DNA from: a virus
DNA length: 44,981 bases
IMG/VR virus record: IMGVR_UViG_3300037293_000319
Coordinates: 1-44,981 of that record
Reading direction: 5' to 3' (one strand)
The notes below the pieces were generated by a model, which saw only the letters and a list, made by a program, of their open reading frames with translations, did not search any database and was not told the DNA's origin. Shown here in pieces: positions 10,891-44,719 of the stretch (within the stretch, counting starts at the first letter, position 1; every line of letters begins with the position of its first letter). The translations under genes and the position numbers were made by a program.

Positions 10891-10901
10891 GGGACGCATA
10901 T
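10891..10901 (+). repeat. GGGACGCATAT element, copy 1
   Basis: Directly ahead of the helicase start codon (first base of motif 18 nt before ATG), followed by CCGGGGC. GGA and TCC can pair around CGCATA. Confidence 0.85.
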
Positions 10902-10908
10902 CCGGGGC

Positions 10909-12384
10909 ATGATACAGCTCCGGCCATACCAGTCCCGCGGCATCGCCGACATCCGCGCAGCGTTCCGCACGGCGCGCCGAGTCCTTGGTGTTTTCCCGAC
11001 CGGTGCGGGCAAAACCACTATCATTGCTTCCATCGTCCAGGACACGCTGGCACGTGGCTCCCGCGTCGTCATCATGGCCCACCGCGAGGAGCTCATCACC
11101 CAGATCCGCGACCGGCTGGCCCTGTTCGGCATAGTCGCCGCGATAATAAAAGCGGGCCACCCAGAGGATCCAAACAATCCCGTCCAGGTGGCGTCGGTCC
11201 AGTCGCTGGCCGGTCGTCTTGACCGGCACAACGCGCCCGATCTGCTCATAGTCGACGAAGCCCACCACACCCTTGCCGCCACGTATCGGTCCATCCTCGA
11301 TGCTTGGTCCAAGTCCCGTGTCCTGGGTCTCACAGCCACCCCCTGGCGCCTGGACGGGCGCGGCCTGGGTGAAGTGTTCGAGTCGATGGTCCAAGGCCCC
11401 ACGGTCGCCGAGCTCATCGAACAAGGCCACCTGGTGCGCGCACGGGTCCTTGGTTCGACGCGGGGCCTGGACCTGTCCGACGTAGCGACGCGGGGCGGGG
11501 ATTTCGACATCGAAGCCTTGGAGAAAGCCATCGCCCGCGCTGGCCTCGACGGCGACGCGGTGCGGACGTTCAAGACTCACTTCCCCACCAGCGGCACGGC
11601 CGTGGCGTTCTGCGTGTCAGTGAAGCACGCGGAGCGCGTGGCGGCCGCGTTCAACGATGCAGGTATCCCAGCGGCTGTGCTGACGGGTGCGGACAAGGAG
11701 GCCCATCGCAAGCGCGTCTTGGAGGACCTGGCTGCTGGCAGGATCCGGGTGCTGTGTTCGGTGGACGTCATCAGTGAGGGGTTTGACCTGCCGGCCATCT
11801 CCGCCGTCATCCTTTTGCGACCCACCAAAAGCCTGTCCCTGTTCCTTCAACAAGTCGGCCGGGCCCTGCGGCCGGCGCCTGGCAAACTGTTTGCGTGGGT
11901 ATTCGATCACGCCGGCAACTCGCTGCGACACGGGCACCCGGAGTCGTTCAGGGACTGGACGCTGGACGCCGAGCAACCGGCCAAACGCGCACTCACGCAG
12001 ACCGAGGATGGCATGGCGCTCACAGTGCGCCAATGCCTGTCGTGCTACGCTATCCACGCGACGGCCCCAGTGTGCCCGTTTTGCGGCACAGAGCACCCGG
12101 TTGACGACAGGATCCCCCGTTGGCGGGCGGTGGAGCTACGAGAGCTCGAACGTGCGGAATTGGAAGCGACCGACGAAGCCAAACGTAAGGCCGAGCGCAA
12201 AGCACAGGGTGGGGCGCGGACCGTGGAGCAACTGACGGCGCTATTCATGCGGCAGGGGGCCAACAGGTGGAAGGCCCAGGCGCGGGCGAAGAAAGTGGTT
12301 GAGGCGCGGGAAGCGAAGGAACGGGCGGAACGGGAAACGCCGCTCTTGCCGGGGGCGGCGGAGTGGTTGGAGGGGATGTTGTAG
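10909..12384 (+). CDS. DEAH-box superfamily 2 helicase with zinc ribbon
   Basis: A 491-aa helicase. It has a Q-like RPYQ, Walker A PTGAGKTT (30-37), motif Ia AHREEL, motif II DEAH (116-119), motif III TATP (142-145), motif V SEGFDLP (289-295) and motif VI QVGRALRP (315-322). A four-cysteine ribbon follows (CLSC at 376-379 and CPFC at 389-392), then a charged helical tail. The family includes DNA-unwinding helicases of phage replication and repair modules. I chose the ATG at 10909 because MIQLRPYQ is the usual start of the fold; an in-frame ATG at 10879 would put the GGGACGCATAT element inside the gene. Confidence 0.9.
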   Translation: MIQLRPYQSRGIADIRAAFRTARRVLGVFPTGAGKTTIIASIVQDTLARGSRVVIMAHREELITQIRDRLALFGIVAAIIKAGHPEDPNNPVQVASVQSLAGRLDRHNAPDLLIVDEAHHTLAATYRSILDAWSKSRVLGLTATPWRLDGRGLGEVFESMVQGPTVAELIEQGHLVRARVLGSTRGLDLSDVATRGGDFDIEALEKAIARAGLDGDAVRTFKTHFPTSGTAVAFCVSVKHAERVAAAFNDAGIPAAVLTGADKEAHRKRVLEDLAAGRIRVLCSVDVISEGFDLPAISAVILLRPTKSLSLFLQQVGRALRPAPGKLFAWVFDHAGNSLRHGHPESFRDWTLDAEQPAKRALTQTEDGMALTVRQCLSCYAIHATAPVCPFCGTEHPVDDRIPRWRAVELRELERAELEATDEAKRKAERKAQGGARTVEQLTALFMRQGANRWKAQARAKKVVEAREAKERAERETPLLPGAAEWLEGML

Positions 12385-12440
12385 CCAGGCGTTGGCGTCG
12401 GGCGCGGATCCACCCGTGCGCGGTTTAGCGGTGTATGTAT

Positions 12441-12476
12441 GCCGCAAAAAGAAAAGGCCCGGAGCGAACCCGGGCC
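12441..12476 (-). terminator. Rho-independent terminator, leftward
   Basis: GGCCCGG (12456-12462) and CCGGGCC (12470-12476) form a stem. On the minus strand it is followed by TTTTCTTTTT. It would end a leftward transcript carrying the tRNA-like gene at 12709-12776. Confidence 0.75.
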
Positions 12477-12708
12477 GGAGGTTTCCCTCTCCGCTTCGCG
12501 ACAAAGTCGCCGCCTGGACGGCGGTGGCCCCAACGCTTGCGGTTTTCCTGGCCTTTTTGCTGTTAAGCGAGGCGGCCTGCCTCCTGTGCATCGTCCACAC
12601 GCGCCGAAGCGGTGGGAACGCCGCTTTGGCCATGCCTGACCGGCCGCATTTCACTATGGCTGCGGACCACCAAGCTGCCATCAAGTCCCCTGGCAGCTGG
12701 GGTAGAGT

Positions 12709-12776
12709 GGCGCGCCGGGACTCGAACCCGGTCGTTTCCCCTTGTCGGGGCTGTGATAACCCATACACCACGCGCC
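12709..12776 (-). tRNA. tRNA-like gene with abnormal anticodon loop, isotype undetermined
   Basis: The minus strand has a 3' half typical of a tRNA: T-arm CCGGG-TTCGAGT-CCCGG followed by CGCGCC, which pairs with GGCGCG at the 5' end. A D-arm-like GTG...CAC surrounds a GGG-containing loop. The anticodon arm is abnormal: CCCC-GACAA-GGGG leaves a five-base loop, and a seven-base loop would lack the universal U33. If two bases were lost, the ancestor may have been Val (GAC). No CCA is encoded at the 3' end. It could be a decayed phage tRNA, a structural decoy, or a tRNA that tolerates a short loop. Confidence 0.6.
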
Positions 12777-13128
12777 CTGCCGGTTACGAGTCCGGCGCCG
12801 TTTTCCTGTGGGAACGGCCGGTTTGTGGCTACACCGCGTTAAGGGCCTCTGGTGTGCTGCGTCCCTATGCTTCTACGCGTTCTGCCCCGCAATCGAGGCG
12901 GGCCGACGCCACATCCGGCCCAATAATCATATAGTCCCAGATCTTCGACACTCCAAATCAAAGAGCGATCTTTTTTTTAAAGAAAAGAGCCGCCCTGAAG
13001 GGCAGCCAAACTTGGTGCGTGAACCAGGATGAACAATGCGCCAACACCATTCATCCTGGCCACAAACGAAACCTTTGGATGCTCACCTTTGAACGCTTGA
13101 CCCGCAGGACCTTAATACGGCTCTCTGC

Positions 13129-13139
13129 ATATGCGTCCC
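13129..13139 (-). repeat. GGGACGCATAT element, copy 2 (minus orientation)
   Basis: Exact copy on the minus strand, 23 bp from copy 3 and pointing away from it. Confidence 0.85.
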
Positions 13140-13152
13140 CTAACGCAGTCTG

Positions 13153-13170
13153 TGCGTCCCCAGGGACGCA
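13153..13170. repeat. TGCGTCCC/GGGACGCA inverted repeat
   Basis: TGCGTCCC (13153-13160), CA, GGGACGCA (13163-13170): a perfect 8-bp inverted repeat made from a half copy of the GGGACGCATAT element joined to copy 3. Confidence 0.85.
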
Positions 13171-13173
13171 TAT
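13163..13173 (+). repeat. GGGACGCATAT element, copy 3
   Basis: Exact copy 42 bp upstream of the start of the 40-aa gene at 13205; GGA and TCC flank the CGCATA loop. Confidence 0.85.
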
Positions 13174-13204
13174 CCAACCCGACCCACCCGTCGGAGACAA
13201 ACCC

Positions 13205-13327
13205 ATGCTTTATTTCATCGTCGATACCTGGCTTGGCATCCAATACCAAGTCGATTCCGAGACAGCCTGCCGGATCCTGGAATCCGCTTACACGACAATG
13301 ACGTGTATCGTGCGGCGGGACGTCTAA
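13205..13327 (+). CDS. hypothetical small protein, 40 aa
   Basis: A 40-residue protein (MLYFIVDTWLGIQYQVDSETACRILES...) with GGAGACAAACCC before its ATG and a stop overlapping the start of the VRR-NUC gene (TAATG). The longer in-frame extension to 13019 runs through the repeat elements and is unlikely. No domain recognised. Its coupling to the nuclease suggests co-expression in the DNA-metabolism module. Confidence 0.6.
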   Translation: MLYFIVDTWLGIQYQVDSETACRILESAYTTMTCIVRRDV

Positions 13328-13692
13328 TGGGACAGCGCGAGACCGACATCCAGAATCGGGCTATGGCCGCGATCCAGCACGAGCACGGGAATCACGTGAC
13401 GATGTTCCGTGTGAATTCCGGGCAGGCCCGATCGGTCCATAGCGACACCAGGATAAAGCTGGCACCAAAAGGCACCGCCGACGTCGTGCTGTGCGCGTAT
13501 GGGGCCTATGCGGAGTTGGAAGCCAAGACGCCCACGGGCGTCCAGTCCGAACAGCAGCAGCAACGCCAAGCGGCTGTTGAGCGCGCCGGCGGCATCTACA
13601 TACTGTTTCGGTCGCCACAGGAAGCCGTCGACCTACTCACAGCAGCGCTTCAGCGTCGAGGTCTTCATCAAGCAGAGCCTCGCGAGCTTTAA
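13327..13692 (+). CDS. VRR-NUC domain nuclease
   Basis: A 121-aa single-domain VRR-NUC protein. The fold is recognisable from FRVNSGQA (27-34), KGTADVVL with Asp52, AELEAKTPTG with Glu65-x-Lys67, then QQQQRQAAVERAGGIYILFRSPQEAVDLL. Such phage proteins act as small structure-specific endonucleases, for example on branched DNA. The start at 13327 overlaps the preceding stop. The 3' end overlaps the convergent sigma-like gene by 56 bp, so transcription of one may interfere with the other. Confidence 0.88.
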   Translation: MGQRETDIQNRAMAAIQHEHGNHVTMFRVNSGQARSVHSDTRIKLAPKGTADVVLCAYGAYAELEAKTPTGVQSEQQQQRQAAVERAGGIYILFRSPQEAVDLLTAALQRRGLHQAEPREL

Positions 13693-14404
13693 ATATCGCT
13701 GTGGCCAGGCGTTGACGCACGCGTTCCGACGACACGCCACCGATCCGCTTGCCGATTTTTTCCTGGGTCATGCCTTCCACGATATACGAGCTCAACACCT
13801 GCCATTCCAGGTCTGTCAACGCCGCTCGCACAATGCTCATAGCATACTCGCGATCGGATGCGGCCAGGTCCTCGGTCGGGTCCGGGGTGTGTTCAGGCTC
13901 GTAGACCTCCGACGCCTCGTTGTCGTCGCCTGCGGCCACGCGCACGGTGTTTCGGCTTGCGTGGAACTGTTCGTATTCCTTGACAGACACACCTAATTCG
14001 CCACATGCCGTTTCCACAGCGTCGCGATCATTCACACCACTCGCCACCAATTCCCGGACCATTGGCCCCACTTTCCACTGAACCAGACGCAGTGGGCGCG
14101 ATCTTGGGACACGCACAGGGCGCAGCATCATGTCCGACAGCAACCGGATCTCTTCGCGTATCCAGTTCGAAGCCGCGGCGGCAAAAGCGCCGCGCGCTGG
14201 GTCGAACGTAGGCAGTGCGCGCAGTATTCCGACCCGGCAAGCCTGCTCTATGTCGTCGCGATCGAGGCCTTGGGGTCCGAATTTATTTCGCACGGCAACG
14301 ATATAGCCTTGCATCGAAGCCATCAGCTCCGCCAAAGCATGCCGATCGCCGGCCTTCGCCGCCATAGCCAAGCGCGTCTGTTTTTGTGCCAGGGTTTCAC
14401 TCAT
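13637..14404 (-). CDS. phage-encoded sigma-70-family factor
   Basis: A 255-aa protein with two sigma regions. Region 2 (about 20-100) includes ALAELMASMQGYIVAVRNKF, GLDRDDIEQACRVGILRALPTFDPARG and FAAAASNWIREEIRLL. Region 4 (about 192-245) contains LTDLEWQVLSSYIVEGMTQEKIGKRIGGVSSERVRQRLATAI with the HTH at 212-238. The layout is like sigma-32/RpoH-type factors, with a poorly conserved region between. It would bind host core RNA polymerase and direct it to phage promoters. The weak -10 boxes shared by several promoters here may be its targets. The start at 14404 overlaps the end of the 87-aa gene. Confidence 0.87.
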   Translation of the reverse strand: MSETLAQKQTRLAMAAKAGDRHALAELMASMQGYIVAVRNKFGPQGLDRDDIEQACRVGILRALPTFDPARGAFAAAASNWIREEIRLLSDMMLRPVRVPRSRPLRLVQWKVGPMVRELVASGVNDRDAVETACGELGVSVKEYEQFHASRNTVRVAAGDDNEASEVYEPEHTPDPTEDLAASDREYAMSIVRAALTDLEWQVLSSYIVEGMTQEKIGKRIGGVSSERVRQRLATAIFKAREALLDEDLDAEALL

Positions 14405-15049: not shown

Positions 15050-15076
15050 GTTCGCCTCCTGTTCTCTCTTGAACAG

Positions 15077-15105: not shown

Positions 15106-15113
15106 AAAATAGA

Positions 15114-17522: not shown

Positions 17523-17822
17523 TCACTTTGCCGTTGCTACGACGATGGCACCGGTGGGACCGGACCAGGCTATGGTGCCGGTGCACTCGACCTCGATCGG
17601 TGCTGGCAACGATGCCGGCATGGGGTCGGTGAGAACGAGACGCTCGCCGCGCACGCGCAAGATGGTCACGTCGTGGCCCATATATGCGTCCGCGATGGCT
17701 TTCCTGGCGGCTGCGGAACGCTCGGCCTTGCCCGTGAATGGGATGCCGTTGGTGGCGGCCTCGGCCAAAAGACCGGCAGAAACGCCTACGAAACGGGGTT
17801 TTTTGATGGTGATGGAAGGCAT
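17523..17822 (-). CDS. hypothetical protein, 99 aa
   Basis: A small Ala/Val-rich, beta-leaning protein with no recognised domain. It starts at 17822 after AGAGAGGAC and is the first gene of the leftward helicase-primase transcript. A near-copy of the GGGACGCATAT element (CGGACGCATAT, minus strand, 17683-17693) lies inside it, encoding Asp-Ala-Tyr. Function unknown; its position suggests an early protein, perhaps a regulator or replication accessory. Confidence 0.65.
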   Translation of the reverse strand: MPSITIKKPRFVGVSAGLLAEAATNGIPFTGKAERSAAARKAIADAYMGHDVTILRVRGERLVLTDPMPASLPAPIEVECTGTIAWSGPTGAIVVATAK

Positions 17823-17884: not shown

Positions 17885-17917
17885 CATAAAACGTCGTTTT
17901 ATTTTGTCGTTTTGTGT

Positions 17918-18113
17918 CTGCGATAGTCTGTGACAGTTAGGGCAAACTATCGCAAGCCGTTTTTTGCTTTGCATACAGTGCCTTATGAAGCGTTGCACAC
18001 CATGTCTGCGACAGTTTGCCCGATTTCTCGGATGTAGCCACTATAGAGCGTGAAAAGGTGGTTTTTAGAGTTGCTATAGTAGCGGAATAGAATATGACCT
18101 AAACTATCACAAG
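17918..18113. repeat. five iterons, consensus AAACTRTCRCARG
   Basis: Copies at 17918-17927 (minus), 17928-17938 (minus), 17943-17956 (plus), 18006-18018 (minus) and 18101-18113 (plus). The first two are directly adjacent and the third is inverted. Short iterons beside a D5-type helicase gene suggest an initiator-bound origin, or multiple operators for a regulator. Confidence 0.65.
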
Positions 18114-18322
18114 ACCCCTAAAAAGTGCTGTTTTTCTCTTTTGTTTCAATATGTTATAGTTGCAAAAATGGTGGTGTTTTGGAGGTGTCGACAAGGTGCC
18201 TGTATGCCTATTTTATACAGGAAAACCAAACACTTTTCACAAACGCCGTTATATTGTTTGGCGTTACGCATCCGGGAACTACCTTGTGCATAGACAGAAA
18301 GACCGGCCAAAGGAGCCACGCT

Positions 18323-18490: not shown

Positions 18491-18756
18491 TGAGCGACAC
18501 AGTCCAACTCGGCACACTCGCGGCTGGCAGCATGGCCGCAGCCCTGGCCCTGGTTGGCTTTCTGCACGAGAACGCCAAGGCGCAGTATGACGCTGCCAGC
18601 CGCGCCCTGTCTGGCCAGGTCTATGAGACCTGTGCGTTGCCGAACCCGCCATCCGCTGCGGCCCTGTCCGATGAGACAGCATTGGAGGCCTACATGTTGG
18701 CTGTTCAGGCTGCCGCTGCCAAGTGCCAGGCCGACATAGCCGCCGACAATCCGTGA
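18490..18756 (+). CDS. small membrane-anchored protein, 88 aa
   Basis: An N-terminal hydrophobic segment (about residues 7-24, LGTLAAGSMAAALALVGFL) is followed by an Ala-rich soluble domain with two cysteines (CALPNPP and AAAKCQAD). The start at 18490 shares a base with the previous stop. It could be a periplasmic or envelope-facing protein made early in the rightward operon. No family recognised. Confidence 0.6.
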   Translation: MSDTVQLGTLAAGSMAAALALVGFLHENAKAQYDAASRALSGQVYETCALPNPPSAAALSDETALEAYMLAVQAAAAKCQADIAADNP

Positions 18757-18757
18757 T

Positions 18758-18768
18758 GGGACGCATAT
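18758..18768 (+). repeat. GGGACGCATAT element, copy 4
   Basis: Follows the stop of the 88-aa gene by two bases and begins 18 nt before the next ATG, the same distance as copy 1. No pairing arms here. Confidence 0.85.
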
Positions 18769-18775
18769 ACAAGCC

Positions 18776-19081
18776 ATGATCAACCGCATACGCGCCCTCT
18801 TTGCTAGGCCCACACCAGACCCAGCACCCGACATGGGTATGCTGGGCGAGGTGCCCTATGTGCCCACGCCAGAGCGCGAAGCCACACTCAAAGCGCACGC
18901 GTTCGATGCAGGCTATTGGGTATGGAAGAACAGGGCGGATGGTGAAGGCCCCGTCGATGTGTTCCCGCCTGCCATACTGACCGCGCTGGCTCGCACCGCA
19001 TACGAGCGCGCGATCATCCAGGAGGCCTACGTCAATGGCCTGGTGACTGGTGTCGCACAGGAGAAGAGCACAAGCCATTGA
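18776..19081 (+). CDS. hypothetical protein, 101 aa
   Basis: A soluble protein with no recognised domain; the centre (LKAHAFDAGYWVWKNRADGEGPVDVFPPAILTALARTAYERAIIQEAYVNGL) should be helical. There is no clear Shine-Dalgarno sequence: the GGGACGCATAT element and ACAAGCC fill the space between the previous stop and this ATG, so the element may affect its translation. It precedes the AT-rich gap before the terminase genes. Confidence 0.65.
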   Translation: MINRIRALFARPTPDPAPDMGMLGEVPYVPTPEREATLKAHAFDAGYWVWKNRADGEGPVDVFPPAILTALARTAYERAIIQEAYVNGLVTGVAQEKSTSH

Positions 19082-19356
19082 TTTGCTTGGTATATGCCTG
19101 AATGTATTTAAATAGTTAATTAATACTAATTACCGAGCCCAATTATACGACCAAATAAATAATCCTAAATAATCCAATGAATACAGTAGTTTATAACCAC
19201 AATATCTTGGGCCGGGGGCCCCTGCCCCCTACCACCTATTGTGGGTATGCGGACAGCTCCAACGGTGTCTGTGATCAAAATTTTTGAAAACTCCTTAACA
19301 ACACCAGGTGCTGGGCCAGTCGCGGCCAAAGCGCAGAGGCAGAGGAACGCACGGAC
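19082..19356. other. AT-rich gap before terminase; candidate cos region
   Basis: About 100 bp of very AT-rich DNA (19100-19200) is followed by a GC block containing the palindrome GGGGCCCC (19215-19222) and CTGCCCCC, then the small terminase start. In lambda the cos site lies in this position, with bendable DNA next to it. No nicking site can be proven from sequence. Confidence 0.4.
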
Positions 19357-19962: not shown

Positions 19963-22033
19963 TGAGCTTGAACGCGATCCGTTCTCCATCTCCCGCGCAT
20001 CTATCGATGCCGCGCTAGACCGTGCAGTCCATGAGAGTCTGGCCCCCATCCCATGGATGAACGGCCGGGAGTGGATCGAGGAGCACGCCGACCACTCATT
20101 CGAGACGTCCAACCGCCAAGGCAAGTTCGAGATGTTTCCGTTCCAGCGTGACCTTGTCGAGATCGCCACCGACCCCGAATGGTCGGAGATCGTGTTTATG
20201 AAGTCGGCACGTGTGGGCTATACCCAGCTGTCTACATACCTGATGGGCTACTACATCCAACACGACCCCAGCAAAGTCGCCTTCATACTGCCCACTAAAG
20301 ACAACGTCGGGGACTACGCCAAAGACAGCCTCAACCCAATGCTGCGTGACATCGAATGCGTGTCCAAACTGCGCGGCGGCGTCTCAATGGACGACAAGCT
20401 GAACCGGTATTTTTCCAACGGCTCTGTGCTCTACCTGCGATCCGCGTTCTCCTCGGACGAACTGCGTCGGATCACCGCCGGTGTCCTATTCCTTGACGAG
20501 ATCGACGCCGACGGATGGGCGGCCAGCGGTCAGGGCGACAAGGTGGACTTGGCAAAGAAGCGTGCAGAGACCGTGTCCGGCTCGCGTGTCTTTCTTGGAT
20601 CCTCCCCTACCGTCAAAGGCGGAAGTCGCATCGAAGCAGCCTTTCTCTTGGGAACCCAACACCGCCGCTTCGTGCCGTGCCCGATCTGCACGCAGCGCGA
20701 CAATCCCGACCTATGGTCCGAGGCCGGCGAGTGGCCGGTCTTTGGTGAACTTCTGCGCGGAAACGGCGTCGTGTTCAGCGGCCACCAGGTCTTGGAGTGG
20801 GGCGACGGCGAGACGCATGGAATCCACTACAAGACCGACCCGGAAAACCCGACATACGTTTGCCGTCACTGCCAGGGCCACATCGAACACAACCTCAAAG
20901 GCTGGATGGACGAATACGGCGAGTGGCGCGCGACGAACTACAACGAAGACGGCAAGCCCGCTTGGAAGAAAGGTGTCCTTTCGTTCCACATTTCCACCCT
21001 GTATAGCCAATTTGAAAAGGCCAGCTGGGCGCACGCCGTTGCCGCTTGGAAGGACTGCGAGGGAGATCCAGAAAAGCGGCAAGCGTTCGAGAATACATGG
21101 CTCGGGCGCACTTTCGAAGACTGGTCCGCCGCCGGGAAAATGTTGGAACCGCACGAGCTCCAAGCCAGCCACTGCGTCGAATATGGCGCCGAGGTCCCAG
21201 CCTGGGTCCGATTCCTGACTGCCGGCGTTGACATGCAAAGCAAAGATGGCGGACGCTTTGAAGTCAAGATACTTGGATGGGGTGCCGGACAGCGAAAGGC
21301 CGTCGTCGCACATTACATCCTGGATGAGCACCCGTTGGCAGATGAAACGGCATGGGTCGGCCTGCGAGACACACTACTGCGTCAGTATAAAACCATGGAC
21401 GGTAGGCGCCTGATAGTTGCTGGTGCCGCTCTGGACTCCGGATCGAACAACGGCGAATTTACACAGCGCATGTATCAATTCGGCGCAGAGAACGCAGACC
21501 GGTGCTGGTGGGCTATCAAAGGGCACGGAACGAAGGGTCGCGGCGTGCGCGGTGATCAGATCTGGCCAAAGGCGATCTCTCCAAACGGGCGCGTGTATCT
21601 TATCGACGTAGACATCGCAAAGGACCAAACATTCCGGCAGCTCTACGCAGAAGCGGATAGCTCGGGCGGGATCTCCTTTCCCGGGGGTGCGGTGCCTGCT
21701 GGCTCGGTTCCGTTCGACAAAACGTATTTCGAGCGCCTGACGCGCGAGAAGCCGCTGCCTGTGAAAGGGCAGCCTGGAAAAACGTTTTGGTCGTCTCCTA
21801 AAGATCAGGAGCCATGGGACTGCCTTATCTATTGCGTGGCCGCAATGTATGGCCTGCTCCAAGCCTACCCCCGCCGCTACGATCCCCTGGTGGCATCGCC
21901 CCCGCGCCCGATCGTCCGGCCTGGTGCGCCAGCGTCCGCGCCAAAGCCAGGCGCTCCGCCGGCCCCTGCCCCCGCAAAATACGTGCCAAAGCCGCGCCCC
22001 GTCGCAACAACGCCTTCATGGATGCGCCGGTAA
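19934..22033 (+). CDS. terminase large subunit (lambda gpA family)
   Basis: A 699-aa DNA-packaging motor of the gpA family. The N-terminal ATPase has a Walker A-like KSARVGYTQ (90-98), VLFLDEID as Walker B (184-191) and GSSPTVKG as coupling motif. Two zinc-binding pairs (CPIC and CRHC) follow, as in gpA. The nuclease begins around GVDMQSKDGGRFEVKILGWG with the first Asp. It makes staggered cuts at cos and pumps DNA into the prohead. A Pro/Ala-rich tail (about 650-699) ends the protein. Confidence 0.95.
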   Translation: MLTLPLSRLDELERDPFSISRASIDAALDRAVHESLAPIPWMNGREWIEEHADHSFETSNRQGKFEMFPFQRDLVEIATDPEWSEIVFMKSARVGYTQLSTYLMGYYIQHDPSKVAFILPTKDNVGDYAKDSLNPMLRDIECVSKLRGGVSMDDKLNRYFSNGSVLYLRSAFSSDELRRITAGVLFLDEIDADGWAASGQGDKVDLAKKRAETVSGSRVFLGSSPTVKGGSRIEAAFLLGTQHRRFVPCPICTQRDNPDLWSEAGEWPVFGELLRGNGVVFSGHQVLEWGDGETHGIHYKTDPENPTYVCRHCQGHIEHNLKGWMDEYGEWRATNYNEDGKPAWKKGVLSFHISTLYSQFEKASWAHAVAAWKDCEGDPEKRQAFENTWLGRTFEDWSAAGKMLEPHELQASHCVEYGAEVPAWVRFLTAGVDMQSKDGGRFEVKILGWGAGQRKAVVAHYILDEHPLADETAWVGLRDTLLRQYKTMDGRRLIVAGAALDSGSNNGEFTQRMYQFGAENADRCWWAIKGHGTKGRGVRGDQIWPKAISPNGRVYLIDVDIAKDQTFRQLYAEADSSGGISFPGGAVPAGSVPFDKTYFERLTREKPLPVKGQPGKTFWSSPKDQEPWDCLIYCVAAMYGLLQAYPRRYDPLVASPPRPIVRPGAPASAPKPGAPPAPAPAKYVPKPRPVATTPSWMRR

Positions 22034-22042
22034 ACCTGGGCG

Positions 22043-22053
22043 GGGACGCATAT
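22043..22053 (+). repeat. GGGACGCATAT element, copy 5
   Basis: Between the large terminase stop and the gpW start. GGGA and TCCC pair around the CGCATA loop. Confidence 0.88.
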
Positions 22054-22081
22054 CCCGGGCACACGCCCGAGGATCCCCAAC

Positions 22082-23975: not shown

Positions 23976-23994
23976 TCCACGCAAACGCGCGCCG

Positions 23995-24005
23995 GGGACG
24001 CATAT
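23995..24005 (+). repeat. GGGACGCATAT element, copy 6 (best hairpin)
   Basis: Portal-protease junction. The arms GCCGGGGA and TCCCCGGC (23991-24012) are perfectly complementary around the loop CGCATA. Confidence 0.9.
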
Positions 24006-24034
24006 CCCCGGCAACACATCAAGGGACCGCATCC

Positions 24035-25162
24035 ATGCCCAAGGACACCATCAACCTGGAAGAGAACATCGTGCGCTTCCGCACCGAGGCGCCCAAGTCG
24101 CGCCTGGCCCAAGGTTTCGAAGTTAAGGCACTCTCCGAAACGGCTGTCGAACTGTTCCTATACGGCGAGATCGGCTGGGACGTGACCGCCAAAGAGATCA
24201 TCGAGGGGCTTCGTCCGCACAGCGTTGCCGGCAACAAGATCGTTATCTGGGCAAACTCCCCAGGCGGCGACGTTACCGAAGGCTACGCGATCGGCAACTG
24301 GATCAAGGCAAGCCCTGCCGAGGTTGAGGTCCGCGTCGACGGTCTGGCTGCGTCAATGGCTTCCTACATCGCCGCCGTGGCCGACCGCACCGTGATGCCG
24401 CGCAACTCGATGCAAATGATCCACCGCCCCTGGGGTGTTGTCGTCGGCACCGCCGAAGACATGGATCGCCGTTCCGGTGTCCTGGCAAAGATGCAGGAGA
24501 TCATCCTGGCGGCCTACGAAGAGAAGCAGCTGCGCACCCTGGGCTCCGTCCCCGAGGGTGCCGAAAGCCTGCGCGAACTCATGTGGAATGGGGAATACCT
24601 GAGCGCCGACGACTGCTTCGCGCTTGGCCTGTGTGATGAGATCAGCGACGCAATCACACTCTCCGCCTGCATCCGGCCTGATATCGCGGACCGCTTCGCG
24701 GGCAAGGTGGACGCCGCGCTCCTGGTTTCCGAAGACGAAACCGCCGCCCAGGACGAAACCCCGCCCGTCCCCACCGAAGAAGAGCTGGCCGCCCAGGCTG
24801 CCGCCGCCGAAGCAGAGGCCACCGCTGCCGCCGATGCCGCTGCGAAAGCCGAGGCCGACCGCCTGGCCAAAGAAGCTGCCATCGATGCGGCCGCCCAAGC
24901 TAACATCGAAGCAGCACAGGCCGAAGCTGACATCCGCGCCGTGTGCCGTTCTGCCGACGCCGAGGACCGCGCAGCGGAATTCATCTCCGCCAAAGCCAGC
25001 CTGAAAGACGTCCGCAAGGCTCTCTGGAAGGCCGCCGCGGCGCGTGATGCAGAAATCTCGACAGATCCCACCCCGCCAGCCCCGCAAATCGCGCAAGAGG
25101 ACGCATATGCAAAGCGAGCGGCAGATGCCCGCCAAAACTACGCCGCCGCGCTGACGCGGTAA
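24035..25162 (+). CDS. capsid maturation protease (ClpP-fold) with C-terminal scaffold
   Basis: A 375-aa protein. The N-terminal 220 residues are a ClpP/S14-like serine protease: NKIVIWANSPGGDVTEGYAIGNWI (67-90), the nucleophile Ser107 in GLAASMAS, and His130 in MIHRPWG. Residues about 235-335 are an Ala/Glu-rich coiled coil typical of capsid scaffolds, so protease and scaffold are one polypeptide. In lambda the C gene also contains the Nu3 scaffold. The scaffold part may also be made alone from an internal start, but I see no strong internal ribosome-binding site. A near-copy of the GGGACGCATAT element lies near the 3' end (25099-25109). Confidence 0.92.
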   Translation: MPKDTINLEENIVRFRTEAPKSRLAQGFEVKALSETAVELFLYGEIGWDVTAKEIIEGLRPHSVAGNKIVIWANSPGGDVTEGYAIGNWIKASPAEVEVRVDGLAASMASYIAAVADRTVMPRNSMQMIHRPWGVVVGTAEDMDRRSGVLAKMQEIILAAYEEKQLRTLGSVPEGAESLRELMWNGEYLSADDCFALGLCDEISDAITLSACIRPDIADRFAGKVDAALLVSEDETAAQDETPPVPTEEELAAQAAAAEAEATAAADAAAKAEADRLAKEAAIDAAAQANIEAAQAEADIRAVCRSADAEDRAAEFISAKASLKDVRKALWKAAAARDAEISTDPTPPAPQIAQEDAYAKRAADARQNYAAALTR

Positions 25163-27925: not shown

Positions 27926-27943
27926 CCACGCAAAACCCCATCG

Positions 27944-27954
27944 GGGACGCATAT
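27944..27954 (+). repeat. GGGACGCATAT element, copy 7
   Basis: Ahead of the tail tube gene. CGGGGA and TCCCCG pair around the CGCATA loop. Confidence 0.9.
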
Positions 27955-27993
27955 CCCCGGCAAGGAACACAACTCAAACGATGAGGCGCCAAC

Positions 27994-28926: not shown

Positions 28927-29334
28927 ATGACAACGCTTGTTCAAATCGCCCCACCGCAGCCACGCATCGTTGAGACCGACAACGCCGGATCGCTCCGCGT
29001 CTTCCCGCTGCGCCTCGGCGACATCGCCGCGCTCCTCTCGCGCCACCCCGCACTCATCGCCGGTTTCAGTGGTGGCGGTGATGCGCAGCTGATCGTGGCC
29101 GCCATCCTCCACAGCGGCCAGGCGGCTGCCGACGACATAGTCGCCGCCGCAACCCGTCGCGCGCCCGACGTCGAAGCCCCTGAACTGACAGCTTTCGACG
29201 AAGCTGAGATCCTCGTGTCCTGCATCGACGCAACACTCCCAAAGTCGCCGGAGCGCCTGGGAAAGTTCCTGGCCGATCTGGGCGATCTCATGTCCCGGCT
29301 CGGCCTCAACGACCTGCCCGAAGCAACCGCGTGA
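28927..29334 (+). CDS. tail assembly chaperone (gpG-like)
   Basis: A 135-aa mostly helical acidic protein between tail tube and tape measure, the position of the G/GT chaperones. It has FPLRLGDIAALLSRHPALIAGFSGGGDAQLIVAAILHSG, typical of tube-associated chaperones. In many siphophages a frameshift near its end makes a G-T fusion; no obvious slippery heptamer is seen here. Instead the next gene starts at a GTGA overlap, so this phage may express the T part by coupling. Confidence 0.7.
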   Translation: MTTLVQIAPPQPRIVETDNAGSLRVFPLRLGDIAALLSRHPALIAGFSGGGDAQLIVAAILHSGQAAADDIVAAATRRAPDVEAPELTAFDEAEILVSCIDATLPKSPERLGKFLADLGDLMSRLGLNDLPEATA

Positions 29335-29561
29335 GCGATTGGGCGACGCTGGTCGAACGCCTCATTGCCACGGGTCACGCTGACCCGTGGGAATACACCC
29401 CAACCCAAGCCATGGCCTACGCAGAGTTGGCTGAACGGCGCACCGCTCGGGCCCACGGGGACGCATATACGATCCAGCGCAATGCTGTCGCGGTTGCCAT
29501 GGGCGCGCTAAAAAAAGAGGACGAACAGAAGTTCCTCGACGCCCTGGACCCAGAGGACTGA
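29331..29561 (+). CDS. second tail assembly chaperone (gpT-like), GTG start
   Basis: A 76-aa protein whose GTG start overlaps the previous stop (GTGA). The sequence (PWEYTPTQAMAYAELAERRTARAHGDAYTIQRNAVAVAMGA) is typical of the small protein preceding the tape measure. An exact GGGACGCATAT copy lies within it at 29458-29468 encoding Gly-Asp-Ala-Tyr, the only exact copy inside a gene. It likely helps the tape measure fold and recruit tube protein. Confidence 0.7.
   Translation: MSDWATLVERLIATGHADPWEYTPTQAMAYAELAERRTARAHGDAYTIQRNAVAVAMGALKKEDEQKFLDALDPED
29458..29468 (+). repeat. GGGACGCATAT element, copy 8 (inside a gene)
   Basis: An exact match within the gpT-like gene, 95 bp before the tape measure start. 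It may be functional or a codon coincidence, since GAC-GCA-TAT encodes Asp-Ala-Tyr. Confidence 0.6.
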
Positions 29562-39203: not shown

Positions 39204-39236
39204 TTGGATGACAGGGACTAAATAAAGGAGCCGCAA

Positions 39237-40073
39237 ATGGGGCCCATGAGTTTTGGAAAGTCGGCGCTGGTTTTTGGCGACGCACACGTGCAGGCGGGTG
39301 AGCCAGAAACCTACCTGAAACGGTTCGACGCCATCGGCCGCCTGGCGCTGCGATACCGCCCTGAAACCGTCATCTGCGGTGGTGACCTTTGGGACCTGCC
39401 ATCTCTTGCAGCGCACCTGGGATCCAAAGCTGTCGGTGGGGGTGGCTCCACCCTGCATCACCAGAACAAAAAACTTGGACAGGATCTCCACGCCGGCAAA
39501 GACGCCATCCTCCGCATCGAGCGTCCGATAGACGAATACAACCGTGCCGCCGGGCGCGCGGGCCGAAGCGGCAACAAATACAAGCCGGCCAAGGTTTTTA
39601 TTTTGGGCAACCACGAAAACCGATTGAAGAAGGTCGGCAACCACAGCCCGGAGCTCGCCGACGTCGTGAACGTCAAAGCCATGATCGTGGACTGGCTCGC
39701 CGCCCGTGGCTGGGACGTCTACGACGGGGAAGCCGAGACATACTGGTTAGAAGGCGTGGGATTTCGCCACTATTTTGGCGACAAGAAGGGCAACCCAATC
39801 CCAATCACCACCGCAAAAAGCAATTTGCCCAGATCCTCTGTGTGGTTCCACCAGCACTCGTTTGCCACCGCCGAGCGCCGCTACGACGGCACCATAGATC
39901 GGTTCCTCGCTATGCCCTGCTACAAGCCAGAGCACCGCTTGGGCGACAAAGAGTCCTCCGGCGTAGTGTTCCTGAACGACATGAACCAGGGCGATTTCTC
40001 AATGACTGAAATACCATACAACCGCGCGATGATGCACGCCATCGAATCAAAAGGCCCGGCGATGGCCGCCTAA
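39237..40073 (+). CDS. calcineurin-like metallophosphoesterase
   Basis: A 278-aa protein with the full metallophosphoesterase set: GDAH (14-17), GGDLWD (48-53), GNHE (124-127), FRHYFGD around 176 and WFHQHS around 203. These residues bind two metal ions, as in Mre11/SbcD and phage phosphatases. Substrate unknown; nuclease or nucleotide phosphatase activity is possible. It lies alone between tail and lysis genes with its own AAAGGAG ribosome-binding site and promoter, so it is likely a late accessory gene. Confidence 0.88.
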   Translation: MGPMSFGKSALVFGDAHVQAGEPETYLKRFDAIGRLALRYRPETVICGGDLWDLPSLAAHLGSKAVGGGGSTLHHQNKKLGQDLHAGKDAILRIERPIDEYNRAAGRAGRSGNKYKPAKVFILGNHENRLKKVGNHSPELADVVNVKAMIVDWLAARGWDVYDGEAETYWLEGVGFRHYFGDKKGNPIPITTAKSNLPRSSVWFHQHSFATAERRYDGTIDRFLAMPCYKPEHRLGDKESSGVVFLNDMNQGDFSMTEIPYNRAMMHAIESKGPAMAA

Positions 40074-40083
40074 AATGGCGCCG

Positions 40084-40094
40084 GGGACGCATAT
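40084..40094 (+). repeat. GGGACGCATAT element, copy 9
   Basis: Between the phosphoesterase and endolysin genes, followed by TCTGGGGG. Only imperfect G-U pairing arms are available. Confidence 0.85.
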
Positions 40095-40130
40095 TCTGGG
40101 GGAAAACTATTCCAGACTGGATACCCCAAT

Positions 40131-41302: not shown

Positions 41303-41400
41303 GCGACATCGTCCGCTGCGCACTCAAAAAGGAAGCACGATTTCTTGGCATCGCTTGCGTCCTGGGCGCGCTGTTCATCATCATTGCGGTGATCACATGA
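41299..41400 (+). CDS. tiny single-pass membrane peptide, 33 aa
   Basis: MSDIVRCALKKEARFLGIACVLGALFIIIAVIT: a short basic cytoplasmic part and one transmembrane helix (about 15-33). Its start overlaps the holin-like stop and its stop overlaps the Rz-like start, both ATGA, so it is almost certainly translated. It could be an antiholin or an extra holin component. Confidence 0.7.
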   Translation: MSDIVRCALKKEARFLGIACVLGALFIIIAVIT

Positions 41401-41741
41401 AAAAGATCCTCTCCTTCCTCACCGGTCCCTGGCTTAACATAGGCTTGATCGCCGCCCTGGCCGTCACCGCCGGCGCCGTGTTCTACCAATACAACGCCGG
41501 ACAGCGCGCCATTGCCAAGGTCGAACAACTGACTGCCGATCTGGCCGTCTCCGAAGCCGAGAACGCCGAGGCCCAGGCCCGCCACGCCCGCGATCTCATA
41601 CGTGTCGCGAACGCGTTCGACGAAGAGCGCGCCCGCTTGGAAGCCGTCCAAGACGCCATAAGCGCGATCGACCAAGCACCTGACAGCGACGACGGGCCCG
41701 TGGCCCCAGTCCTGAAAGACACCCTCCGGAGGCTCCCATGA
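41397..41741 (+). CDS. inner-membrane spanin (Rz-like)
   Basis: A 114-aa protein with an N-terminal membrane anchor (about 11-28, WLNIGLIAALAVTAGAVFY) followed by a periplasmic coiled coil rich in Ala/Glu/Arg (residues 30-95). This is the layout of Rz i-spanins. With the lipoprotein encoded by the overlapping next gene it would fuse inner and outer membranes in the last step of lysis. Confidence 0.85.
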   Translation: MKKILSFLTGPWLNIGLIAALAVTAGAVFYQYNAGQRAIAKVEQLTADLAVSEAENAEAQARHARDLIRVANAFDEERARLEAVQDAISAIDQAPDSDDGPVAPVLKDTLRRLP

Positions 41742-41995
41742 TCCGCTTCGCCCTCATCCTGCCGCTGATCCTGGCCGCTTGCGCCAGTGCCCCAGCGCCG
41801 GTCGTCACGCAGCCCGTGACACCACCGGCCGCCCTGTTGACGTGCCGTGCCGCGCCTGCCGTGCCACGCGACGCCGAGACACAGCGCGAAGTCGCACGGT
41901 TCATCGTCCGCCTCTCGGAAGCTGGCGAAGACTGCCGATCCAAGCTGGGCGCCGTGCGTCACTGGGCCGAAGAAGAAGCCCCGCCGGCCCCTTGA
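41738..41995 (+). CDS. outer-membrane lipoprotein spanin (Rz1-like)
   Basis: An 85-aa protein with a lipoprotein signal (MIRFALILPLILAACASAP, lipobox LAAC with Cys15) and a Pro-rich start, then cysteines near residues 36 and 65. It overlaps the Rz-like gene by ATGA, while the classical Rz1 lies inside Rz in another frame; here the two are adjacent. Dimers span the periplasm with the i-spanin. The lysis cassette ends here. Confidence 0.85.
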   Translation: MIRFALILPLILAACASAPAPVVTQPVTPPAALLTCRAAPAVPRDAETQREVARFIVRLSEAGEDCRSKLGAVRHWAEEEAPPAP

Positions 41996-41999
41996 CGCG

Positions 42000-42041
42000 C
42001 CTAACGCCGCCCCCACCTTGGCGTTACCAAACGCCGTTAGG
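42000..42041. repeat. CCTAACG/CGTTAGG inverted repeat with inner hairpin
   Basis: CCTAACG (42000-42006) and CGTTAGG (42035-42041) flank an inner GGCGTT-ACCA-AACGCC hairpin (42020-42035). It lies between the spanin stop and the 55-aa gene, whose AGGAA ribosome-binding site overlaps the right arm. It may be an operator or a translation-controlling structure. Confidence 0.45.
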
Positions 42042-42050
42042 AACGCCCGT

Positions 42051-42218
42051 ATGACCGCCACCCGCATCGAATCCGCTCTCGCATACGTAGCAGCCTGTAT
42101 AGCCGCCCACGGCGACGCATACCTGCCGCTGTTCGAGAGGCTCGAAGCGGAGCTTTTGGCCGTTCGCACCAAGGAATCGGCCCGAGATCGTGCGCTGCGC
42201 TTGGCCCGCGCCGCCTGA
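42051..42218 (+). CDS. hypothetical small protein, 55 aa
   Basis: A helical protein (MTATRIESALAYVAACIAAHGDAYLPLFERLEAELLAVRTKESARDRALRLARAA) with TTAGGAACGCCCGT before its ATG. The C-terminal half is strongly basic, a possible DNA-binding tail. No domain recognised. It is the first of the small genes between lysis and integrase, where lysogeny or establishment functions often lie, but nothing in the sequence proves such a role. Confidence 0.5.
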   Translation: MTATRIESALAYVAACIAAHGDAYLPLFERLEAELLAVRTKESARDRALRLARAA

Positions 42219-42252
42219 CGCAAAGAAATGTTTTCCAGTATTTCCTAATGTT

Positions 42253-42327
42253 TTTTTACAAACGGCGGTGTAAACAATCGTTTTATTTGTGCGTTATGTT
42301 GCGCGGTTAGGTTTGACAACCTATATT
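42253..42327 (+). promoter_or_regulatory. promoter/operator region P2 of the 42374 gene
   Basis: -35 TTGCGC (42299-42304), 17-bp spacer, -10 TATATT (42322-42327). The spacer contains the dyad AGGTTTGACAACCT (42309-42322). Upstream TTTTTACAAACGGCG (42253-42267) is identical to P1 (6090-6160). A regulator binding the dyad would block polymerase at both places. Confidence 0.6.
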
Positions 42328-42373
42328 CTATTTATCGGAAGGCAGGAAGCCACGAACAACCAGGAGAACGAAA

Positions 42374-42685
42374 ATGACCATCATCACCGGAACCGAAAAA
42401 CAGATCGCTTGGGCCTCGCAGATCAAGGCTGAATGCCTCGTTCGCTGGAACACCCTGCGCGAGAATGAGTGCATCGCCGATTTTGGTTTCACCGATGCGT
42501 TGGCATCGCTGATTGCGACCGCAGAGGGCATCACCGATGCGTCGGATTGGATCGACAGCCAGGACAATGCGAGCGTGTTGTTTTGGGGTGTCGGCATCGG
42601 AATAGGCAAGCCAGAAACCCTCCCAACCGACATGCGTTCATACCGGCACCTCATCCGCCTGATGAACATCCGCTCGTTTGCCTGA
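42374..42685 (+). CDS. hypothetical protein, 103 aa
   Basis: A soluble protein with a strong CCAGGAGAACGAAA ribosome-binding site and a well-formed promoter at 42299-42327. The N-terminus (TGTEKQIAWASQIKAECLVRW) resembles the start of small phage/plasmid proteins of unknown function that begin GTEKQIxWA. It contains ALASLIATAEGITDASDWIDSQD in the middle. It shares its promoter/operator design with the coiled-coil gene at 5352-6041, so the two are probably co-regulated. Confidence 0.65.
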   Translation: MTIITGTEKQIAWASQIKAECLVRWNTLRENECIADFGFTDALASLIATAEGITDASDWIDSQDNASVLFWGVGIGIGKPETLPTDMRSYRHLIRLMNIRSFA

Positions 42686-42771
42686 CACAACCAGCCGGGC
42701 CTCGGCCCGGCACCAACCGACAGCCAAAGAACACCCCCATGCTGAAACCTTACAACTGAAGGAGAACCCCA

Positions 42772-42996
42772 ATGGCCAACGCCCCCCTCTCAACCCGCCG
42801 GGCCCACGCCCTCATAGCAGAAATGGCACTCACGTGCCGCAGCGTCTTGACTATAAAGCCCATTTCCGGTGGCGCCATGGTCGAAGTCGGAGCCCGGCCA
42901 GACGTCGGGGATGTTGTTCATTTTGAACACCTTCCCAGCGTCGAAGAACTGCGCGCCCAGGTGCGCGAGATTCAAGAGCGCCGTCGGATATGCTGA
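42772..42996 (+). CDS. hypothetical small protein, 74 aa
   Basis: A 74-aa protein with AAGGAGAACCCC ahead of its ATG. The middle (SVLTIKPISGGAMVEVGARPDVGDVVHFEHLPSVEELRAQVREIQERR) looks like a small beta domain followed by a charged helix. A six-codon peptide ending in TGA (42739-42759) overlaps its leader and might act in translation coupling, but that is speculative. Function unknown. Confidence 0.6.
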   Translation: MANAPLSTRRAHALIAEMALTCRSVLTIKPISGGAMVEVGARPDVGDVVHFEHLPSVEELRAQVREIQERRRIC

Positions 42997-43301
42997 ACAT
43001 ACACGATTTTCTCCGGCTCATCCGCGCGGGCGTTCTCACGTATGCACGCGAGTATGACCAAGGCCCTGGCGTCATATTTGTTGTGCGCGGGGCGCCGTCG
43101 GCTATAAAATTGACCGTTTTGCACATGCCATCTCAACTTTCTGCGGCGCCCAGGCCTGACTGGGTTGCAGACAGATGGAACAATGGGCGTGACCGTCGCA
43201 TAGCAGAGACTCTGGTGAACGCCGCGGAAGATGGCGCGCTAAACGGGCACACAGAGCTCTGGCTTCACGCGCGTCTCAACGACCTCCAGCCGGCCGCTTA
43301 A
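42990..43301 (+). CDS. hypothetical protein, 103 aa
   Basis: A protein beginning MLNIHDFLRLIRAGVLTYAREYDQGPGVIFVVRG, with an overlapping start (seven bases) with the previous gene and only a weak GGAT ribosome-binding site. A basic middle (PRPDWVADRWNNGRDRRIAETLVNAAED) follows. It ends convergently inside the integrase gene's 3' end by 26 bp. No domain recognised. Confidence 0.55.
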   Translation: MLNIHDFLRLIRAGVLTYAREYDQGPGVIFVVRGAPSAIKLTVLHMPSQLSAAPRPDWVADRWNNGRDRRIAETLVNAAEDGALNGHTELWLHARLNDLQPAA

Positions 43302-44682
43302 CTGTGCGTATGCCCAGGTCCGCGAACGGGTCCGGCACGTCGAACACCACACGGCGCACAATTTCCGCGCGCTCTTCGACTGTCATCAAGTCCCCGTAAA
43401 CCTGGCGCCCACGTGCGGCGCCGACGCTGTGGCCCATCATCTCGCCCCTGTCATCGCTTTCCAGCTCCGCCTTCTTCAATCGCTTTTCCCAGCTGTGGCG
43501 CAACCCGCCAAGGGTGTGTTCTGGTGTGGGGAACAGCCCCGCTTCCCGAAAATACTTGTTGGCCGCAGCGCTGAACGCCCTGGTGCCCCCGTAGCGCGGG
43601 AAGAAGCCGTTGGCCGCCCGACGTCGCATTGCGGCGAGCGCCACCCCCATCAACGGCACAGGCCTCACGCTGGCGTTGTTTTTCTGTTCTTTCAGGCCCT
43701 CATCGTGCTCCAACATGGCGTAGGGTATTGGTTCGTCCAGGAAGATCCGATGGGCGGGCAAGTCGTGTATCTCCGCCTGCCGGCACCCGGTTTCCAGCGC
43801 AATCAAAATTATGTCCCGTGCCTCGCTGTTCAAGCCCGCCATCGGGCCCGAAGTCAGCAGCGTAGCCCGGATCCACTCATCCGAAAACTCCGGCTTGCGC
43901 TTTTTCTTTTCGAACCCATCGGATTCAATGCGCACGCGATCGTATGGCCTCACGCCGTCCAAGACGCCGTCGGCCTCCTGGATGGCCCGGATCCACTTGG
44001 CGGTCTCGGCCAGTTCCTTGCGCGCCGACGCTGTGTTCAGTTTGCGGGCCTTGACGTCTTTCAGTAGCAAGTCCCTGTGCGCCACGGCGTCTTTCTGCGT
44101 GAGGTCCAACACAGCCTTGTCTGTGCCGATCGCCGTGCGCAGCCTGGAAAAATACCGCAAGATGGGGCGCTTCCACACATAAAGCTGGCTTGGCCCCTTC
44201 ATGCGGTTCGCGTAGTCTTGGATTTCCTCCACCCTGTCCGCCGCCTGGGACAGCAGCAGAACCGGCCGCTCCACCCCGCCAAGCAACGCCGCCACGGCGG
44301 CACCATCGGCCGCCGAAGGGTCCGTCGCCGCCAAGCTTTCGACTCTGCCAAGCAACTCTTCCAGGCTACCTTCGGCAAGGTCCGCAACGGGTCGGTATGT
44401 GAACCCACGGGCCAGGGCCAGGTCCCGCACGCGGGCGTAGTGCTCCCGCCCTCCTGGTGCCGTTTGCCCAAGCAATCGGGCGTTTAGGCCGGCCAAGACC
44501 TCCTGCTGAACGACCAACGCCGCGCGCATCGCATCCGCGCCGTCCGTCGTCTTCAACGACACGAACAGCTCCTTGCGCGGCTCCACGCCGCGGAACCGAT
44601 CGGGCACCCAGTAGCGCAGGCACCACAGCCCCTTCTTGCCGCGCTGAAATATCTTTGGAACCATCTGCTCTTCGTCTACCAT
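43276..44682 (-). CDS. int: tyrosine site-specific integrase
   Basis: A 468-aa phage integrase. The catalytic domain begins about residue 265. Catalytic residues visible are Arg301 (ETGCRQAEI), Arg395 followed by His396 (LGGLRHSWEK), His418 (MMGHSVGAA) and the nucleophile Tyr429 (RQVYGD). The usual first His of the HxxR box is replaced by Gly, as often seen in related integrases. A long N-terminal region (1-260) carries the arm- and core-binding domains. It inserts the phage at the att site and excises it with a directionality factor that I did not identify. Upstream are an inverted GGGACGCATAT pair and three 11-bp-spaced repeats. The ribosome-binding site is CGGAGGGCAAC. Confidence 0.92.
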   Translation of the reverse strand: MVDEEQMVPKIFQRGKKGLWCLRYWVPDRFRGVEPRKELFVSLKTTDGADAMRAALVVQQEVLAGLNARLLGQTAPGGREHYARVRDLALARGFTYRPVADLAEGSLEELLGRVESLAATDPSAADGAAVAALLGGVERPVLLLSQAADRVEEIQDYANRMKGPSQLYVWKRPILRYFSRLRTAIGTDKAVLDLTQKDAVAHRDLLLKDVKARKLNTASARKELAETAKWIRAIQEADGVLDGVRPYDRVRIESDGFEKKKRKPEFSDEWIRATLLTSGPMAGLNSEARDIILIALETGCRQAEIHDLPAHRIFLDEPIPYAMLEHDEGLKEQKNNASVRPVPLMGVALAAMRRRAANGFFPRYGGTRAFSAAANKYFREAGLFPTPEHTLGGLRHSWEKRLKKAELESDDRGEMMGHSVGAARGRQVYGDLMTVEERAEIVRRVVFDVPDPFADLGIRTVKRPAGGR

Positions 44683-44692
44683 GTTGCCCTCC

Positions 44693-44719
44693 GGGACCCA
44701 TATATGAAATATGCGTCCC
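44693..44719 (-). repeat. GGGACGCATAT element, copy 10, in an inverted pair
   Basis: The exact minus-strand copy (44709-44719) faces a one-mismatch copy on the plus strand, GGGACCCATAT (44693-44703), with a 5-bp gap. It lies in the leader of the integrase gene, directly ahead of its ribosome-binding site. Confidence 0.85.

Follow-up and report, generated by a model that had tools for sequence, protein, structure and literature searches.

Which factor reads a short word that recurs, oriented with transcription, at gene junctions throughout a viral genome? The question is raised by the IMG/VR virus record IMGVR_UViG_3300037293_000319, a stretch of 44,981 bases that was analysed whole (hereafter, the window), and in which the element GGGACGCATAT occurs in ten exact copies. 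As judged from sequence, the element very probably forms the conserved core of promoters for a phage-encoded sigma factor, a reading that draws together the sigma gene, the repeats, the promoter geometry around them, and the finding that both nearest relatives carry a homologous, diverged sigma factor alongside an element that has also diverged.

The ten copies, reported in a preliminary description of this DNA, were recovered by an exact recount at the same positions and on the same strands, and the expectation that chance would supply well under one per 45 kb is in line with a mean of 0.02 and a maximum of one in 100 dinucleotide shuffles. Little excess exists beyond the exact copies, as 18 matches with up to two mismatches were found and 11.2 are expected. 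When genes were called independently by codon use, nine of the ten copies fell outside genes, as had been described, the exception being the copy at 29458, which lies within the small open reading frame (ORF) 29331-29561. The spacing of 18 to about 50 nucleotides (nt) to a start codon given earlier holds for eight copies (Table 1), but not for the 29458 copy or for the minus-strand copy at 13129, which has no convincing gene downstream, and the minus-strand gene that had been seen after the copy at 44709 is that of the integrase. Nine copies precede an ORF in the same direction (ORF 13205 included) and the tenth, at 13129, precedes a predicted RNA; within the window, the element is accordingly a repeated, promoter-like sequence ahead of phage genes and oriented with transcription. 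No match to it was found in Rfam. A scan of the sequence collection for the element near an ATG returned at least 120 stretches, of which 80 were listed; among the loci examined, L087 alone held two copies, apart from two window pieces, and the collection matches, L087 included, were taken as chance by estimate rather than computation and were dropped.

The sequences around the copies have the geometry of promoters. Sites were aligned with the C of CATAT at -12, which places an extended -10 element, GGGACG followed by CATATC, at -18 to -7. In this frame the predicted +1, seven bases past the -10, is a purine at all 17 sites (ten in the window, five in the relative L130 and two in the relative L129), and is A at 13 of them, the frequency of A in the window being 20%. 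The best other position between -7 and +6 has purines at 13 of 17 sites, and a purine is found at the same offset after 22 of the 44 other CATAT words in the window. The +1 offset was picked after the leaderless sites discussed below had been seen, and it equals the textbook offset. Following CATAT, a C, A or T and then a C are found at 15 of the 17 sites, the exceptions being the minus-strand copies at 13129 (GC) and 44709 (TT), and the six bases upstream of CATAT differ between phages. The -35 element is clear in L130, where GCGCGA lies at -35 to -30 with a 17-bp spacer and is matched at six of six letters at three sites, at five at one site and at four at another; this hexamer carries 9.8 bits of information, and none of 5000 random draws was as good. 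In the window the -35 element is weak and is seen at five of the ten sites, with leave-one-out scoring of positions -38 to -28 giving a Fisher P of 2.4e-7, and with the best hexamers starting at -39 to -35 at P values of 0.0004 to 0.0016 each (35 positions looked at).

For the copies at 10891 and 18758, the predicted +1 falls on the A of the ATG codon itself, and the corresponding messenger RNAs are accordingly predicted to be leaderless. The same spacing is present in the L130 contig ahead of its helicase orthologue, in the arrangement CATATT-N6-ATG (GGGAGGCATAT, contig positions 955-965, G002). The upstream half of this site, GGGAGG, shares five of six letters with the GGGACG of the window and only two of six with L130's own AAGCGT, although a ribosome site could be an alternative reading of GGGAGG.

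The proposed reader of the element is a sigma-70-family factor, the ORF of which was exposed by the codon-use gene call (Table 1). Both region 2 (Sigma70_r2, 26.3 bits against a Pfam cut-off of 24) and region 4 (Sigma70_r4, 33.5 bits against 24.1) are recognised, and the protein matches the sigma factor family PHROG_351 at 2.4e-24 and, by sequence against the PDB, RpoS at 1.7e-10, with SigA and RpoH also matched. The predicted model has a mean pLDDT (predicted local distance difference test) of 75 and a pTM (predicted template-modelling score) of 0.40, and its first fold match is Escherichia coli sigma32 (3e-7, with 23% identity in the Foldseek alignment); global template-modelling scores of the fold matches are low, at about 0.3, as would follow from uncertain angles between the domains. 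Promoters of a T7-like polymerase had been the first idea suggested by the oriented repeats, and were set aside because the window proteins scanned included no match to a phage RNA polymerase.

Sigma factor and element were found together, and both altered, in relatives of the window. A search of viral contigs with the window terminase yielded L129 (a 7.9-kb contig, with TerL 69% identical to that of the window), L130 (23 kb, TerL 45% identical) and L131. L130 carries AAGCGTCATAT five times, each before a gene: by gene content these are TerS, the adaptor, the protease, a gene in the major tail position (without detectable similarity to the window major tail protein by tblastn) and a homologue of window gene 28927. 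L129 carries GGGACCCATAT after TerL and CGGCCCCATAT before TerS. Junctions strictly equivalent to window sites number three of five in L130 (adaptor, protease and major tail) and one of two in L129 (adaptor), and in the terminase and tape-measure blocks of the relatives the site is present, shifted by at least one gene. The sigma factors of L129 and L130 belong to PHROG_351 and are 29% and 23% identical, respectively, to that of the window. When a profile built from the three sigmas was applied to the window and a further 12 loci, it matched the window, L129 and L130, gave far weaker matches in the cultured phages L149, L150 and L151 (fetched for having a sigma factor), and found nothing in L131, L134, L135, L136, L137, L138 and L139, so that two of nine relatives are positive. 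The whole records of L131, L135 and L139 are likewise negative for PHROG_351, and in phiNP (L136) and BZS1 (L137) the annotation shows Q antiterminators rather than a sigma factor. These same distant relatives, namely phiAP1 (L135), phiNP, BZS1, L131, L134, L138 and L139, show no comparable repeat. Sigma factor and element thus co-occur and co-differ, in what is a small sample; looking for the element in related phages, as had been suggested at the outset, located it in the two nearest relatives with its upstream half changed, but not in the distant relatives, which have neither the sigma factor nor a comparable element.

A terminase alignment search recovered L134 from viral contigs and nothing from genome contigs, a terminase search found one Methylobacterium prophage-like locus (L138), a portal search found L139, and a search with the L130 terminase returned only itself; among 385 genomes from the same class as the Methylobacterium hit, no other was matched at E <= 1e-100. 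The window sigma matched one phage record at E 1e-3 and no viral contig. Searches with the L130 and L129 sigmas matched 58 and 21 phage records, respectively, each at less than 60% identity, from which L149-L151 were fetched, and a sigma alignment search found L129, the L130 contig and four weak region-2 matches (L144-L147, compared by k-mers only). Endolysin and plasmid searches gave no closer relative.

Two alternatives would place the element on DNA but assign it to another protein. In mycobacteriophage L5, stoperators serve as repressor sites, and a phage repressor could similarly bind the element and block transcription at many junctions. The asymmetry of the site and its mostly single orientation with transcription fit such a role, as do its presence before the integrase and helicase genes, its change between relatives in the way that immunity specificities change, and the presence in the window of at least one other DNA-binding protein (with an H-NS C-terminal domain, 6220-6678). 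However, a repressor site predicts neither a -35 at 17 bp, nor a +1 purine, nor a coincidence of +1 and ATG, each of the three genomes that bear the element also encodes a sigma factor, and no phage-repressor family was found among the window proteins scanned, which do not include all small ORFs; the terminase small subunit also matches a family named 'excisionase and transcriptional regulator'. An L5-like operator is, on this evidence, highly improbable. It is also very unlikely that the promoters are read by a host sigma factor such as RpoH, or by a host sigma factor aided by a phage activator. The sigma32 consensus has CCCCATNT as its -10, which the -10 half of the element (CNCATAT) resembles, L129 has CCCCATAT, and sigma32 is the best fold match of the phage sigma, although the -35 of that consensus, CTTGAA, was not seen. 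Against a host sigma, the element changes between relatives that each have a diverged phage sigma, and the conserved block spans the -10 and the bases just upstream, with no separate host -10 in the alignment. A scan for host-type promoters over 12380-14000 found none, against only 0.7 expected in shuffles, and carries no weight either way.

A further alternative would move the element to RNA, as a hairpin with a CGCATA loop that serves as the target of a translational repressor or the substrate of a ribonuclease. The hairpin of the preliminary description is real in part: GGGACGCATATCCC occurs three times in the window, and folds are stable at 22043 (-9.0 kcal/mol, 18 of 200 shuffles folding at least as well), 23995 (-17.6 kcal/mol, 0 of 200) and 27944 (-11.2 kcal/mol, 10 of 200). 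The site at 40084 folds at -7.8 kcal/mol, and the other six fold weakly, at -1.3 to -4.0 kcal/mol. A stem is kept after TerL of L129 (GGGA/UCCU, -5.7 kcal/mol, 23 of 200 shuffles as good), but the other L129 site is weak (-2.3 kcal/mol), three of the five L130 sites have no fold at all, and the remaining two are marginal (-3.1 and -2.6 kcal/mol). The stem, stable at three of ten window sites and poorly kept in relatives, does not have the conservation through compensatory changes expected of an RNA operator, the -10 letters persist where it is missing, and at 10891 and 18758 the element would lie upstream of the predicted message. An RNA target is scarcely credible in light of these results; the hairpin looks incidental, and its constant 'loop' is just the constant part of the motif. 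Of the ligands originally envisaged, DNA is favoured and RNA is not, and the parallels drawn with stoperators and translational-repressor hairpins give way before the 17-bp spacer to the -35, the +1 purine and the phage sigma. The idea of a dedicated phage regulatory system at gene junctions is, by contrast, supported.

Several observations nevertheless weigh against promoters read by the phage sigma. The -35 of the window ranks in the best 2% at five of ten sites (18758, 23995, 27944, 40084 and 44709) and in the best 12% at 13129, and leave-one-out scoring detected none at 10891, 13163, 22043 and 29458; the sites at 23995 and 27944 are similar to one another and possibly not independent. With the spacer left free, no hexamer shared by the window sites does better than P = 0.038, and further, weaker signals by position (P 0.004-0.03) lie at -49 to -47, -40, -34, -30 and -28 to -24. 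Membership of PHROG_351 is not specific, as 13 of 14 cellular control genomes also have a match to this general sigma family. Sigma and element were found together in two relatives only, one of them the 7.9-kb L129 with two sites, and the relatives without sigma include fragments, L134 and L139 being short contigs and L131 and L138 part-contigs in the profile run. Lastly, the cultured phages L149, L150 and L151, whose sigmas belong to the same superfamily, showed no comparable repeated junction word by exact k-mers, with the candidate words in L149 and L150 behaving unlike junction elements; given this result, the pairing of sigma and element is extended to the present lineage only.

If the phage sigma does read these promoters, a host sigma would transcribe the early minus-strand genes, the sigma gene among them, after which the phage sigma would join the host core RNA polymerase and start transcription at some 10 to 12 places. 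The regulon would comprise the helicase, nuclease-like, adaptor, protease, major head, major tail, tape-measure, endolysin and integrase genes, and the messages from 10891 and 18758 would begin at AUG. Two sites with one mismatch would complete the set, as both outscore the best of 20 shuffles (at most 17.0) with the full promoter matrix. The probable eleventh promoter, at 25098, scores 28.6, and its -35 region, which was outside the matrix training, is among the best 0.0001 of the window. The possible twelfth, at 17682 on the minus strand, scores 23.4 with a weaker -35 (tail of 0.02); the primase gene that follows it precedes the sigma gene on the same strand; a genuine promoter here would let the sigma operon reinforce itself. 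A mirror match at 44693 was rejected on its -35 (0.61).

Table 1. Predicted promoters, transcript and sigma factor gene of the window (distances run from the first base of the element copy to the start codon).
Feature	Coordinates	Strand	Distance (nt)	Remarks
Promoter	10874..10909	+	18	copy 10891; +1 = 10909, A of helicase ATG, predicted leaderless; no recognisable -35
Promoter	13121..13156	-		copy 13129; +1 = 13121, leftward; overlaps -35 region of divergent promoter 13163
Promoter	13146..13181	+	42	copy 13163; +1 = 13181; before ORF 13205-13327 and nuclease-like gene; no recognisable -35
Promoter	18741..18776	+	18	copy 18758; +1 = 18776, A of ATG of ORF 18776-19081, predicted leaderless; then terminase genes
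Promoter	22026..22061	+	39	copy 22043; ahead of head-tail adaptor 22082; no recognisable -35
Promoter	23978..24013	+	40	copy 23995; ahead of head maturation protease 24035
Promoter	27927..27962	+	50	copy 27944; ahead of major tail protein 27994
Promoter	29441..29476	+	105	copy 29458 in ORF 29331-29561; +1 = 29476; ahead of tape-measure gene 29563; no recognisable -35
Promoter	40067..40102	+	47	copy 40084; ahead of endolysin 40131
Promoter	44701..44736	-	37	copy 44709; +1 = 44701; ahead of integrase 43276-44682
Probable eleventh promoter	25081..25116	+	84	AGGACGCATAT at 25098, one mismatch; within end of protease gene; before major head protein 25182
Possible twelfth promoter	17674..17709	-		CGGACGCATAT at 17682, one mismatch; within ORF 17523-17822; ahead of primase gene
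Predicted short non-coding transcript	12985..13121	-		from promoter 13129; about 135 nt; long hairpin and terminator-like stem 13007-12988
Sigma-70-family factor	13637..14404	-		255 amino acids; proposed reader of element

The minus-strand copy at 13129 is predicted to direct a short RNA, for which no convincing ORF was found. Its fold has a z of -2.77, with 3 of 200 shuffles as good, and one of four terminator-like sites in the 1.6-kb stretch (1.5 expected) would close the transcript. Nearby, a tRNA-Cys with the unusual anticodon ACA was called by ARAGORN at 12707-12777 on the minus strand, and is possibly tRNA-like or a degenerate tRNA. On the other side of the divergent promoters, the nuclease-like gene (13327-13692) has a PHROG endonuclease match of 1.6e-9.

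The window also carries RecE/RecT-like, D5-type primase, helicase, terminase, portal, protease, major head, major tail, tape-measure, endolysin, holin-like and spanin-like genes. The integrase matches a PHROG at 6e-19, with the Pfam integrase domain under its cut-off, and the window is probably a temperate siphophage, 'temperate' being read from the integrase. The H-NS-domain protein mentioned above is encoded on the plus strand (Pfam 7e-8). Two genes are DNA methyltransferase-like, one by PHROG (2779-3894, minus strand) and the other (9740-10876, plus strand) by short stretches of DNA that match methyltransferase genes of Xanthomonas, Edwardsiella and other phages. An AT-rich gap at 17900-18180, which separates the divergent early and late blocks and contains CTATAG-type words, is perhaps an early promoter/operator region, and a block around GTGGGTATGCGG that is common to 19225-19260 of the window and 9219-9254 of L130, upstream of TerS, is a candidate cos or terminase-binding region.

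Phage sigmas that redirect host RNA polymerase to dispersed phage promoters, as proposed here, are familiar from T4 (gp55) and SPO1 (gp28 and gp33-34), both large lytic phages, with T4 late promoters consisting of a -10 only and needing the sliding clamp. Closer in kind is phiEco32, a podovirus without the gene order of the window. PMC8948821 describes a single tAATGTAtA element before the middle and late genes of phiEco32, with starts 6-8 bp downstream, and explains it by the lack of homology to region 4 in the gp36 sigma. One short, highly conserved element ahead of phage genes and a phage-encoded sigma are thus common to both cases, whereas the window sigma has region 4 and a detectable -35. 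For the Salmonella phage 7-11, the same paper gives bipartite late promoters, GTAAtg-(16)-aCTA, upstream of late genes for SaPh711_gp47, a sigma 15% identical to gp36 and with a dissimilar consensus; PMC4331800 had given the predicted promoters of phiEco32 and 7-11 a similar layout, with motifs alike, unlike the later account in PMC8948821. On that later account, the window and L130 resemble phiEco32 and 7-11 as a pair with diverged sigmas and dissimilar elements, although the sigma, spacer and sequences of 7-11 are others and the phage is lytic (PMC4331800). For the temperate Bacillus phages Wbeta and Fah, sporulation-like sigmas are discussed in the accessible text of PMC9429907 with regard to effects on host sporulation; these phages share a sigma gene in a temperate context, but no repeated phage promoter set is described in that text. 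The cyanophages S-CBS3 and KBS-S-2A and Salisaeta icosahedral phage 1 also have small genomes, with a sigma matched more weakly by the three-sigma profile, and differ in having no repeated junction element by exact k-mers.

By these sequence comparisons, the present case would work like the phiEco32 and 7-11 sigmas and appears to belong with them. It differs from them in its sigma and its element, in its siphophage-like context with an integrase, in the placement of the integrase in the putative regulon, and in the predicted leaderless messages; no report of this promoter was found in the literature, in which the element string itself was not searched for. Tentatively, and from the gene content of few relatives, the sigma may, in this lineage of integrase-bearing siphophages, have replaced a Q-type antiterminator in control of a lambda-like late block. 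Promoters would then stand before almost all late operons, the integrase and the small RNA, some of them giving leaderless messages, and sigma and promoters would drift together so fast that the code already differs between relatives with 45-69% of terminase sequence in common.

Sigma genes had already been annotated in some small phages, and here a genome-wide promoter set would be attached to one, in a phage that is probably temperate. An unexplained repeat would thereby become a readable late regulon. The natural sigma/promoter pairs, diverged at equivalent junctions, would make a joint change in the specificity of a sigma factor and its promoters testable, and they offer candidate orthogonal sigma/promoter pairs.

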